A stretch of DNA of 64,000 bases from a virus, in IMG/VR virus record IMGVR_UViG_3300042691_013609, positions 1-64,000 of that record; one strand, given 5' to 3'. Of this stretch, positions 46,556 through 62,991 are shown piece after piece. Under the pieces are notes generated by a model that was not told where the DNA came from, made no database searches, and saw only the letters and a program-made list of their open reading frames with translations. Every line of letters begins with the position of its first letter. Position 1 is the first letter of the stretch. Made by a program: the position numbers and the translations under genes.

Positions 46556-46877
46556 CTTTACTATTTGAAGTTTCAAAACAAATTTCTTTTCGGATGCTTT
46601 CTAAGAATGCCCAAAGACTCTCATGGCTATCACAAATTATATTCCCACACCCATCGAAAGCTTCGTATCCTTTTTGTCCAAAGTCATTATGATAACAAAA
46701 CCAATCAAACATTTCTAATCCATGTTTTCCGTATATTTCCTCTATTAATGTAGATATAATTTTATGATATAGATCAACGAACTCAATAAGATCAACATTA
46801 AGTTTGTACAATTCAGAAATTACTCTTCCTTCTTTTTGTAAGGATAAGGTAACTTTTAAAAAATTTTCATAGGTCAT
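46545..46877 (-). CDS. hypothetical protein, 110 aa
   Basis: Starts at ATG 46877, whose bases overlap the TGA of thyX; an upstream TTG is less likely. Contains EIYGKHGLEMFDWFCYHNDF and EAFDGCGNIICDSHESLW, compatible with a small alpha/beta protein. Unknown function; coupled to thyX by the ATGA overlap. Confidence 0.55.
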   Translation of the reverse strand: MTYENFLKVTLSLQKEGRVISELYKLNVDLIEFVDLYHKIISTLIEEIYGKHGLEMFDWFCYHNDFGQKGYEAFDGCGNIICDSHESLWAFLESIRKEICFETSNSKDEK

Positions 46878-47506
46878 AAGTTCCAAGCATTTAAAGTGTG
46901 TTGAAAAGGATTTCCTTCTATATTTTTAACTAAATTAAGCATCTGTCTTGCTATCTCTTGTATTTCAACTTGCGCATGATCGTCCATCCGCTGGGTTAAA
47001 AAGTTATGAAACGATCTCATATTAAACATAACATCAGACTCTATCTGTGAGTTGTATGTCTTAAAGAATCTTGCTGACTCCTTTGCACGTTTTCTACCTA
47101 AGATAGGAGTGAGTTCTTCAAGACATTGATGATACCATTGGTTAGACATTTGAGTAAACCCTATCAAATGACGTTGTGCTTCTTGTGGCCAATCATCTGG
47201 GATGTAATACTTATCTTCTTTTAATTCTTTATAACGAGCCGACTCAGCATTAATTGATGAGATACGATGTTTCAACAAATGTATATGGCTAGCAATATCG
47301 CAGTTAACTAAAAAATGTACCATACCTTTCTCAAAAGGTGTTCCATGCGGTACAGGTTCTGCATTCCATAATTGTTCTATCAATGCAGGAATTCTTTCCC
47401 TTTTCTCAGGTGATAAATCTCTTGAGGTACTCGTCCACGCGCTGCAAGAAATTGCTTCGTCACCTCCGTACCATCCAATTAGTTTTACGCTATTATTCAT
47501 TGTCAT
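46874..47506 (-). CDS. thyX: flavin-dependent thymidylate synthase ThyX
   Basis: The 210 residues carry the ThyX signature KHRISSINAESAR (79-91; consensus RHRxxSxxxxSxR, with Lys for the first Arg) and the later RSFHNFLTQR and FFKTYNSQIESD regions typical of FAD and dUMP binding. It makes dTMP from dUMP with folate, NADPH and FAD. It supports DNA synthesis in an AT-rich phage. An HNH endonuclease gene precedes it with a one-base overlap (TAATG). Confidence 0.92.
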   Translation of the reverse strand: MTMNNSVKLIGWYGGDEAISCSAWTSTSRDLSPEKRERIPALIEQLWNAEPVPHGTPFEKGMVHFLVNCDIASHIHLLKHRISSINAESARYKELKEDKYYIPDDWPQEAQRHLIGFTQMSNQWYHQCLEELTPILGRKRAKESARFFKTYNSQIESDVMFNMRSFHNFLTQRMDDHAQVEIQEIARQMLNLVKNIEGNPFQHTLNAWNL

Positions 47507-48255
47507 TATTTAATTGGTTCAATCGATGGAAAATTCTTTGGATTGGTTGTTGTACTCGATCCTTGCGTTATTTTATAATCCCCATATTTTGCGGGATTTG
47601 GAACCATTTTATTTGCCATTATGCAATTACATATTGTACAACCACACACTATGTGGAATGGTACTAAATCGTCTAATTTATTTATGTCCTTCATTTTTAA
47701 AATTTTAAATCTACTTTGTTGTCCACGCCTTATTTTACCCTCCCAAACATAAGGCCCATTCGCTCCTTCTTCTTCGTACATGTAAAGACTTGCTGTTCTT
47801 ATTGAAGGAAAAATCTTACCTGTTTGAGTGTCAAACACTTGTTGGCTACGAACCTCATTTGCTTTCTTAATCATATCATACCTGCGTTCAGGGTTGTTTT
47901 TATTCCACGCTCTTAGGTTATCTTCTCGTGTCAAATACTCTAAATTAGAGACGTGGTTATTTGTTTTACATTCGTCTATGTGGTTAACAGTCAACGAGTT
48001 ATCTCCTTTAATGAATGCTGAAGCAACAAGGCGGTGAACTTTAAAGCGCTTCATCTTTCCGTCTTTGTACAAGTTTACAAGGTGGTATCCGTATGCGTCT
48101 AAAATAGGCTTTAGGATTTTTTCTTTTACAACTTGATTACCTTTTAAACCGTGTGCTACAGAACGCTCGCAAGACTTAACTTGCCCACAATCTGACACCT
48201 GATAAAGGCCTTCGTATCCTAGTATATCCTTCCAAATTTCCATGTTGTTACTCAT
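47506..48255 (-). CDS. NUMOD4/HNH homing-type endonuclease, 249 aa
   Basis: N-terminal NUMOD4-like part (EIWKDILGYEGLYQVSDCGQ), an HNH core (VHRLVASAFI ... TVNHIDECKTNNHVSNLEYLT) and a C-terminal NUMOD1-like DNA-recognition part (VFDTQTGKIFPSIRTASLYM). The last ~60 residues (PFHIVCGCTICNC...) look unrelated, possibly an add-on. It lies directly before thyX, a classic target of mobile endonucleases, though no intron is evident. It shares its C-terminal module with the HNH gene at 51.3-51.8 kb. Confidence 0.85.
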   Translation of the reverse strand: MSNNMEIWKDILGYEGLYQVSDCGQVKSCERSVAHGLKGNQVVKEKILKPILDAYGYHLVNLYKDGKMKRFKVHRLVASAFIKGDNSLTVNHIDECKTNNHVSNLEYLTREDNLRAWNKNNPERRYDMIKKANEVRSQQVFDTQTGKIFPSIRTASLYMYEEEGANGPYVWEGKIRRGQQSRFKILKMKDINKLDDLVPFHIVCGCTICNCIMANKMVPNPAKYGDYKITQGSSTTTNPKNFPSIEPIK

Positions 48256-51104: not shown

Positions 51105-51284
51105 TTAATAAGTTCCTCCGACAGTTCTTGGAAGACTTTTTACAACTTTTTGAACCTCTTCTGAATTCAATTTAATTGTAACCCCGTCTTTTGTTATAAA
51201 CATTTCTAAACCTTCAGCCCAGTGCGAATAAGATTTAGTTGAATTGTTACATGATGTTATTGTAAATACAGAAAATTCACTCAT
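51105..51284 (-). CDS. small hypothetical protein, 59 aa
   Basis: ATG 51284 overlaps the stop of the HNH gene (ATGA). The 59 residues begin MSEFSVFTITSCNNSTKSYS and include EMFITKDGVTIKLNSEEVQK, a strand-helix pattern. Its coupling to the HNH gene suggests it was part of the same insertion or is re-joined downstream of it. Function unknown. Confidence 0.55.
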   Translation of the reverse strand: MSEFSVFTITSCNNSTKSYSHWAEGLEMFITKDGVTIKLNSEEVQKVVKSLPRTVGGTY

Positions 51285-51769
51285 GATTTATTTAAAATTT
51301 TAAACCTAATTTGTGTGCCTCTTATTATTTTACTTTTCCAAGCAAAAGGGCCACTCGCGCCTTCTTCTTCATACATATATAAACTTGCTTCTTTAATAGA
51401 AGAAAATACCTTATTAGTTTGTGTATCTAAAACTTTTCTGCTACAGACCTCTTTTGATTTTTTAGTCATCTCAGCCAAATATTCTGAATCGTTTTTTATC
51501 CTGCCTTTATCTACGGCATCTTGCCAATTATCTTTGGCTGAACCTAAGAATAGATGATCCGGGTTAACACATTTTCTATTGTCACATGAGTGACATACAT
51601 ACATACCTTTAGGAATCTCTCCTTTATGTAGAGTATAAGAAAGCCTGTGGGCATCTAATACTTTTCCATCTACTTTGATAGCGCCATAACCTGTCTTACC
51701 TCTTAGACCGGCCGTCCATTCCCAACATCCGTCTTCTATCTTATTTATTTTACTATAAAACCTTTCCAT
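51281..51769 (-). CDS. HNH homing-type endonuclease, 162 aa
   Basis: HNH core AHRLSYTLHKGEIPKGMYVC followed by HSCDNRKCVNPDHLFLGS, with the ligand pattern of the HNH_3 group. The N-terminal part (GCWEWTAGLRGKTGYGAI) is the usual zinc-finger-like start of this type. The C-terminal 60 residues (VLDTQTNKVFSSIKEASLYM ... GTQIRFKIL) match the same module of the HNH gene at 47.5-48.3 kb. It lies between structured regions 1 and 2, consistent with homing into non-coding RNA loci. Confidence 0.85.
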   Translation of the reverse strand: MERFYSKINKIEDGCWEWTAGLRGKTGYGAIKVDGKVLDAHRLSYTLHKGEIPKGMYVCHSCDNRKCVNPDHLFLGSAKDNWQDAVDKGRIKNDSEYLAEMTKKSKEVCSRKVLDTQTNKVFSSIKEASLYMYEEEGASGPFAWKSKIIRGTQIRFKILNKS

Positions 51770-51787
51770 TTATTTTACTTTTTTTAA

Positions 51788-51912
51788 AAAGATATGTGGT
51801 GTCGCTCCACTGCCTCTACAACCTAAGAATTTCGCTCAAAAGGGACTTCTAGAACTTATGTCCGTTTCGTACTAATCCGAATTGCTAACACCATTTTTGA
51901 ATGGATATCTTT
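51788..51912 (-). ncRNA. structured non-coding region 2
   Basis: A 160-base gap between genes contains a perfect 8-bp outer helix (51788-51795 with 51905-51912), a 5-bp hairpin CCATT/AATGG directly stacked on it (51891-51904), GTGG/CCAC (51796-51810) and GGAC/GTCC (51843-51863). The enclosed layout, about 125 bases, looks like a self-contained fold upstream of the HNH gene. I do not know the family. Confidence 0.45.
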
Positions 51913-51929
51913 GTATTAATTGTGGTCAC

Positions 51930-52121
51930 TCATAACCATTTTCCAAATCTAAAATTAGTAAACCCTATTCCAGATATATCTGGATCATTTTTATATATCT
52001 CTTCTAATTCTTTATAATACGGAGATTCTTTAGGTTCGCTAGTAGCCTCTGTTTTATACAGTATTTTTTCACATGGTTTATCTCTACGAAGATAATAAAA
52101 AATATATTCTCGTTTTGCCAT
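51930..52121 (-). CDS. small hypothetical protein, 63 aa
   Basis: Begins MAKREYIFYYLRRDKPCEKI and ends GIGFTNFRFGKWL. Basic N-terminus, strand-rich. It is isolated between structured regions 2 and 3. No family recognised. Confidence 0.5.
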   Translation of the reverse strand: MAKREYIFYYLRRDKPCEKILYKTEATSEPKESPYYKELEEIYKNDPDISGIGFTNFRFGKWL

Positions 52122-52140: not shown

Positions 52141-52190
52141 TTTTAAAAACCCGCAAGATACATGATGCGTCCATCAGTAGAGCTTGCAGG
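52141..52190 (-). terminator. hairpin terminator of the tRNA/RNA unit
   Basis: Reading leftward, an 8-bp stem CCTGCAAG/CTTGCGGG (52190-52183 with 52057-type partner at 52157-52150, one G-U) encloses an inner GATG/CATC hairpin and is followed by TTTTT. It ends structured region 3. Confidence 0.6.
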
Positions 52191-52485
52191 ATACGTTACA
52201 ATTTATACCTTGGGCTATTCATTGTAACAAGAAGACCAGAGGGCAGTTCTTTGGGATGCTTCCTGGTACGTTATTAAAAAGCCAGGAAAGCGAGCGTGGA
52301 CACCACGCTCCTAAACTCTCCTAGCACGAAATTCTCCACTAAGTCTCGGTATACACAACATAGGAGAATTAGAAATAGGGAGCTACCCATCTTTCCTATA
52401 ACCGATCGCATCCTATAGAGGCTGGTAGTATTATTCCACCCAGAAGTTTAAAACTTCCTTTCATTGCACCTATAGCGAAACTGGG
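52141..52485 (-). ncRNA. structured non-coding RNA 3, downstream of the tRNA
   Basis: A 365-base gene-free stretch (52122-52486) directly follows the tRNA. It contains many perfect inverted repeats: CCACCCAG/CTGGGTGG (52436-52443 with 52481-52488) holding GAAGTTT/AAACTTC; AATTCTCC/GGAGAATT (52330-52337, 52363-52370); GAGCGTGG/CCACGCTC (52292-52310); TCCTGG/CCAGGA (52261-52287); GTTACAA/TTGTAAC (52195-52228); and the terminator stem at the end. With a promoter before the tRNA and a terminator here, it looks like a discrete tRNA plus ncRNA transcript. Position next to a phage tRNA recalls the large ornate phage RNAs (GOLLD, ROOL), but it is shorter and I cannot assign a family. Confidence 0.65.
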
Positions 52486-52559
52486 TGGGCTAAATAGGGC
52501 TTGAACCTATGACCTACTGATTATGAGTCAGTTGCTCTAACCTACTGAGCTATTAGCCC
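52486..52559 (-). tRNA. tRNA with CAU anticodon (Met or Ile2)
   Basis: Cloverleaf with acceptor GGGCTAA/TTAGCCC, D stem GCTC/GAGC, anticodon stem ACTGA/TCAGT with loop CTCATAA (anticodon CAU), and T arm ATAGG-TTCAAGC-CCTAT. The discriminator is A; CCA is not encoded. A CAU tRNA may be elongator Met or, if modified to lysidine, Ile for AUA codons. The acceptor pair C4-G69 and heavy AUA use in this AT-rich genome favour Ile2, but this is an inference. Confidence 0.93.
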
Positions 52560-52572
52560 TTAAAGATGATTA

Positions 52573-52580
52573 CAAATTTA
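52573..52580 (-). promoter_or_regulatory. promoter -7 box of the tRNA unit
   Basis: TAAATTTG fits TAnnTTTG and ends 13 bases before the 5' end of the tRNA. The -33 region is not a clear TTG. Upstream are two ATTTAACAAT direct repeats (about 52603-52620), possible operator sites. Confidence 0.55.
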
Positions 52581-61277: not shown

Positions 61278-61313
61278 GCAGTTACCTCCGAGGTAACTGC
61301 CGTGTTATAAAAT
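61278..61313 (-). promoter_or_regulatory. palindromic leader element, copy 1
   Basis: 61278-61300 is a perfect palindrome with 11-base arms (GCAGTTACCTC / GAGGTAACTGC) around one C. It is flanked by a conserved TTATAAAAT at 61305-61313 and lies 17 bases before ATG 61261. The same element stands before the gene at 62940. Operator, leader hairpin or intergenic terminator are all possible. Confidence 0.75.
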
Positions 61314-62957: not shown

Positions 62958-62991
62958 GGCAGTTACCTCCGAGGTAACTACCCTTGTTATA
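62958..62991 (-). promoter_or_regulatory. palindromic leader element, copy 2
   Basis: 62961-62979 repeats the palindrome core (AGTTACCTC C GAGGTAACT) seen at 61.28 kb; outer arms continue with one mismatch. The neighbouring TTATAAAAT is also conserved. It stands 18 bases before ATG 62940 and about 20 bases after the -7 box at 63002-63009, i.e. inside the 5' leader. Confidence 0.75.

Follow-up and report, generated by a model that had tools for sequence, protein, structure and literature searches.

GOLLD, a nanocage RNA of phages, has a representative (env-38) that follows a Met-tRNA in marine metagenomic sequence, and ROOL, an RNA of phages and prophages, often lies near tRNA islands (PMC12286853). 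An arrangement in which a tRNA is followed by a structured RNA thus has a precedent in env-38. Among crAss-like phages, a permuted tmRNA (RF04321) is annotated near tRNA-Met in cr273_1 and in others; in cr273_1 (NC_055904) we observed that the annotated tmRNA (L171:2527-2900) is a permuted one (RF04321, 46.2 bits vs a gathering threshold of 47) whose 3' end is overlapped by an unannotated tRNA (2832-2900, 53.6 bits), and that related sequences are present in other crAss-like phages. Bacteria, for their part, possess small RNAs that tRNA processing frees from the 3' end of a tRNA transcript (external transcribed spacer type). To our knowledge, GOLLD and ROOL are striking tRNA-adjacent phage RNAs to which no function has been assigned. 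Here we describe a compact phage locus in which a tRNA appears to lead a transcription unit that ends in a structured RNA belonging to no named family.

The DNA analysed (hereafter the window; 64,000 bases) covers bases 1-64000 of virus record IMGVR_UViG_3300042691_013609, which is 121,238 bases long, and positions are those of the window unless the record is named. Because the record encodes a Crassvirus major capsid protein (PF23898), a tail ring protein 2 (PF25702), a PolA-type polymerase and a DnaB-like helicase (nearest to those of Cellulophaga phages phi17:2 and phi4:1, with 32% identity), we classify its source, on these marker proteins, as an uncultured crAss-like phage. Its host is probably a member of Bacteroidota, since, outside IMG/VR, the capsid protein finds its nearest relative (70% identity) in a MAG labelled Chitinophagaceae (L161), a label that is open to binning error. 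Besides the tRNA described below, the record harbors a single further one, a tRNA-Leu(TAA) at record positions 74680-74765. Two HNH endonuclease genes (47506-48255 and 51281-51769) are located near a thymidylate synthase gene (46874-47506) and the tRNA unit; the second of them is separated from the neighbouring ORF63 by 160 nt of non-coding sequence (51770-51929), whose minus-strand end is a hairpin with a T-run and whose plus strand carries a promoter-like TATCTTTGTA at 51906. Elsewhere in the genome, perfect 19-bp palindromes (AGTTACCTC-C-GAGGTAACT, some of them extended to 27 bp) occur in about 14 mostly intergenic copies confined to 61.3-68.0 kb (61278-61300, 62961-62979 and 12 more up to position 68045 of the record, G000), and may represent operator sites or a mobile hairpin. 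A sub-threshold type II hammerhead ribozyme candidate is found among these palindromes (record positions 67062-67134; L006:3062-3134, minus strand), with the core elements CUGAUGA, GAAA and GUC present and a score of 30.4 bits (gathering threshold 37; E 0.0002-0.002).

On the minus strand, a promoter box is succeeded by a CAU tRNA, about 340 nt of non-coding sequence and a terminator hairpin with a U5 tract. The preliminary description of this DNA had proposed such a series, with a helix-rich and gene-free stretch between tRNA and terminator, and ARAGORN, Rfam, helix counts and codon scores confirmed it. The features are as follows:

52573-52580, minus strand: promoter box TAAATTTG of the Bacteroidota -7 type (TAnnTTTG), recognized from the sequence, a motif census and the published consensus
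52486-52559, minus strand: tRNA with CAU anticodon (ARAGORN; RF00005, 76.6 bits)
52145-52485, minus strand: non-coding, GC-rich and helix-rich RNA of ~341 nt, the 3' part of the predicted tRNA transcript (helix counts, fold z, GC, codon scores)
52436-52488, minus strand: 8-bp helix CCACCCAG/CTGGGTGG that pairs the tRNA acceptor end, discriminator included, with the trailer and encloses a small hairpin (52457-52443)
52254-52413, minus strand: long-range 6-bp helix GGATGC (52413-52408)/GCATCC (52259-52254), which closes a central domain in the minimum-energy fold
52330-52370, minus strand: 8-bp hairpin AATTCTCC/GGAGAATT with a loop of 25
52281-52325, minus strand: two-storey hairpin, a perfect 8-bp stem GAGCGTGG-TGT-CCACGCTC (52310-52292) on top of an 11-bp stem with G-U pairs
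52195-52228, minus strand: 8-bp hairpin GTTACAAT/ATTGTAAC with a loop of 18
52145-52190, minus strand: intrinsic terminator, a two-part hairpin (52190-52150, -18.5 kcal/mol) followed by T5 (52149-52145)
51930-52121, minus strand: ORF63 (63 aa, coding-like codon use), which starts 24 nt past the terminator and lies outside the unit barring read-through

TAnnTTTG is the -7 box of the Bacteroidota sigma-A factor and occupies positions -12 to -5 (PMC9723704), a spacing that would place the transcription start at about 52568, 9 nt ahead of the tRNA. As the motif occurs 105 times on the minus strand of the record (121 kb), the probability of a chance match at most 30 nt upstream is ~2.6%, and similar boxes (TATCTTTGTA, with an TTTTTTAATTA-like sequence before it) precede other minus-strand genes of the phage. 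Further upstream, a 10-bp hairpin (52650-52621) may terminate the preceding operon. The tRNA itself (bounded at 52559-52484 by ARAGORN and at 52559-52486 by RF00005) is called as tRNA-Met and could alternatively be a tRNA-Ile2; its gene encodes no CCA, the discriminator (A73, 52486) being followed by CCC.

The stretch behind the tRNA forms a local GC peak (43% vs 35% for the record) in an AT-rich genome, is single-copy, has no repeat in common with other parts of the record and contains no repeat element. A small protein was rejected, given that the ORFs within it (40-46 aa) have codon scores resembling those of out-of-frame ORFs; by the same test the flanking ORF63 and HNH gene appear coding-like. 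Perfect helices are in clear excess over dinucleotide shuffles, with 4 of 8 bp or longer (0.2 in shuffles) and 6 of 7 bp or longer (0.9 in shuffles), neither count being reached by any of 200 shuffles. When only stems of 7 bp or longer that hold at least 3 G/C pairs are counted, the stretch has five, a number equalled in 0 of 942 background windows drawn from this genome (from which the palindrome cluster at 61.3-68.0 kb was left out). The fold energy of the minus strand (z -3.5 to -3.8) is unusual and not unique (approximately the top 5% of the phage's windows), and is a poorer witness than the helix counts because windows across the genome already tend to low values (mean z -0.9, s.d. 1.6; 13 of 160 random windows, or 8%, at z <= -3) and the complementary plus strand scores as well (z -4.3). 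In the predicted fold, the domain closed by the long-range helix holds the hairpin at 52370-52330 together with the two-storey hairpin, the 3' arm of which (52291-52281) can pair either with 52325-52315 or, partly, with 52266-52260. The terminator was not reported by a simple terminator scan, for which the outer loop of the hairpin was too long.

We propose, with moderate confidence, that the tRNA heads a single transcription unit and that the 341-nt RNA at its 3' end, once tRNA processing has set it free, persists as a stable phage small RNA. According to this scenario, a host-type RNA polymerase would initiate ~9 nt before the CAU tRNA, read through the tRNA and the ~341 nt of structured RNA, and halt at the intrinsic terminator. 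Host RNase P would subsequently cut the 5' end of the tRNA, and RNase Z or exonucleases (proposed since no CCA is encoded) would make its 3' end, so that release of the tRNA would leave the 341-nt RNA to accumulate as a stable small RNA; we infer that it could act in trans, as a regulator, sponge or scaffold. Consistent with this proposal are the promoter box at the right distance, the tRNA, the terminator, the helix excess, the GC island, the absence of a coding signal and the presence of a single copy, in which neither a tRNA remnant nor a repeat element was detected. Counting against it are the lack of any homologue in the collections searched (see below), a fold energy that reaches only about the top 5%, an opposite strand that folds equally well and the position of ORF63 behind the terminator, which also fits a leader RNA. 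That the unit is self-contained (a promoter, the tRNA, a non-coding body and an intrinsic terminator, all in the same orientation) is well supported by its anatomy, and the same anatomy makes a functional RNA plausible, albeit unproven.

The position of ORF63 introduces the first of the alternatives, namely that the stretch is a 5' leader or attenuator, in which the transcript of the tRNA promoter would reach a terminator that gates ORF63 and, downstream of it, the HNH endonuclease gene. ORF63 lies only 24 nt past this terminator, looks coding and showed no TAnnTTTG box of its own in the motif census, and alternative pairings are available to the two-storey hairpin. However, we saw no clear antiterminator overlapping the terminator stem, and ORF63 could equally be served by a phage polymerase or by read-through from upstream operons; we consider a leader role unlikely.

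About as improbable, in our estimation, is that the trailer has no RNA function and is a chance or decaying hairpin-rich sequence, i.e. the remains of a mobile insertion beside a free-standing HNH endonuclease. The two HNH genes of the neighbourhood are in keeping with such an origin, as are the palindromes found elsewhere in the phage and the many windows of its genome that fold well. A further argument in its favour is the outcome of the homology searches, which recovered no relative in any collection searched (the closest records to the genome of the window were excluded from these, so that nearly identical copies, too alike to inform a covariation test, may exist). Thus, blastn of the region found no homologue among 50,697 phage records, and IMG/VR scans with two exact non-tRNA patterns from the RNA returned none either, their one 16-base match (L162) showing no similarity beyond it. 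A tRNA-based IMG/VR pattern scan retrieved 50 loci, 0 of which carry the trailer RNA behind the tRNA. Seven contigs of the same or near-identical phages (G001-G007) are fragments that end before the region; a contig of this kind, IMGVR 3300021594_000287, breaks off within the primase gene not far from the RNA. Queries of IMG/VR with DnaB, primase and MCP yielded no relative spanning it, and no homologue of the RNA was present in 22 records found via distant MCP or in 399 genomes of the family Chitinophagaceae, to which L161 is assigned; L161 itself matches the tRNA only. A single-sequence covariance model, run over 40 records (39 besides its own), recovered only itself and a 20-nt hairpin. On the other side, the perfect-helix excess goes beyond all shuffles and (in the GC-filtered count) beyond all background windows, and it would be unexpected for decay to have spared perfect 8-bp helices and left the adjoining promoter and terminator intact.

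The strongest hairpin of the RNA (21 nt) has exact copies in two contigs of one other IMG/VR phage (L024:5752-5772 and L025:1445-1465), in which it interrupts the D-loop of a tRNA-Leu (with the insert removed, ARAGORN calls a normal tRNA-Leu). As the collection is large and hairpins are common, this sharing is possibly due to chance. Directly behind the tRNA-Leu with the insert an ORF begins. In a further phage contig (L035, minus strand, ~4000-3870), a tRNA gene located beside a tRNA-Met shows an apparent insertion of ~80 nt in its anticodon arm.

The preliminary description had also drawn attention to a helix (52436-52488) reaching into the acceptor end of the tRNA, and had suggested that folding of the downstream RNA could compete with that of the tRNA or guide processing. 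The helix exists: its two strands (52488-52481/52443-52436) form 8 perfect base pairs, 6 of them G/C, and involve the discriminator as well as the two acceptor bases before it. Competition survives as a thermodynamic possibility, to which the evidence lends weak support, the ensemble pairing probability being ~0.35 for the trailer helix and ~0.59 for the acceptor stem under an energy model that reproduces the tRNA cloverleaf poorly. Forcing the trailer helix gives -130.6 kcal/mol (best fold -132.7 kcal/mol), and when the acceptor stem is forced as well, with 6 of the 8 trailer pairs kept, the energy is -125.3 kcal/mol, ~7 kcal/mol above the best fold. Were folding coupled to tRNA maturation through this helix, one precursor would provide both the phage's tRNA supply and a regulatory RNA; we nevertheless regard as very doubtful the proposition that the RNA typifies a new class of tRNA-linked RNAs in aquatic crAss-like phages with such a coupling. 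A trailer that serves chiefly to control tRNA maturation, by hiding the acceptor end and discriminator so that the RNA would exist as tRNA or as blocked precursor, seems to us slightly less probable still. The perfection and G/C content of the helix and its predicted pairing speak for it. In opposition stand the order of events (the tRNA is transcribed and folded before the trailer), the 7 kcal/mol that the leftover 6-bp trailer helix would cost with the acceptor stem retained, and the consideration that a single 8-bp match among many possible ones is unremarkable on its own.

At the gathering threshold, the tRNA was the sole Rfam match of the region, and at E up to 10 no relevant match was added, whether 1001 or 350 bases were searched. 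The covariance models of GOLLD (at gathering or E up to 10) and ROOL (at E up to 10) were unmatched, in agreement with the earlier reluctance to assign the RNA to either. Likewise rejected were a group I intron, the known ribozyme families and the known sRNAs (no Rfam match, E up to 10), a decayed tRNA array or tRNA remnant (no further tRNA signal in the stretch, E up to 10), and a tmRNA, standard or permuted (no Rfam/RF04321 match, none called by ARAGORN, no T-arm and no tag reading frame). Remote kinship with GOLLD, with ROOL, with another ornate phage RNA or with the crAss-like permuted tmRNA, perhaps in shortened form, would fit the setting next to a phage tRNA (permuted tmRNAs lie near tRNA-Met in cr273_1 and other crAss-like phages), but these Rfam and ARAGORN results, the missing T-arm and a length half or less that of GOLLD already disfavour it and make it highly improbable.

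We return therefore to the tRNA-led unit with a small RNA as its 3' part, and to its standing among known systems. Like GOLLD, the RNA is phage-borne and located beside a tRNA (in a crAss-like phage record, tRNA 52559-52486), non-coding and helix-rich (PMC12286853), but GOLLD exceeds 800 nt and assembles into a cage, whereas the present RNA has ~341 nt, no Rfam match and no known multimer. ROOL is similarly a phage RNA near tRNA, from which the RNA described here differs in being shorter, in lacking an Rfam match and in accompanying a single tRNA only. The resemblance to both is thus one of place only. With the permuted tmRNA of cr273_1 it has in common a structured nature, a similar length and the proximity to tRNA-Met, and it differs in the absence of a T-arm, a tag reading frame and an RF04321 or ARAGORN match. 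Closest to the processing proposed here are the external-transcribed-spacer small RNAs, which also reside within a tRNA transcript and are freed by its maturation; the present RNA departs from them in its 341 nt and its multiple hairpins. We accordingly place the trailer RNA, for now a candidate and not a class, as a new orphan among the tRNA-linked non-coding RNAs of phages. Being compact and equipped with a promoter and terminator of its own, it would offer, if transcripts and relatives were found, a tractable third example beside GOLLD and ROOL.
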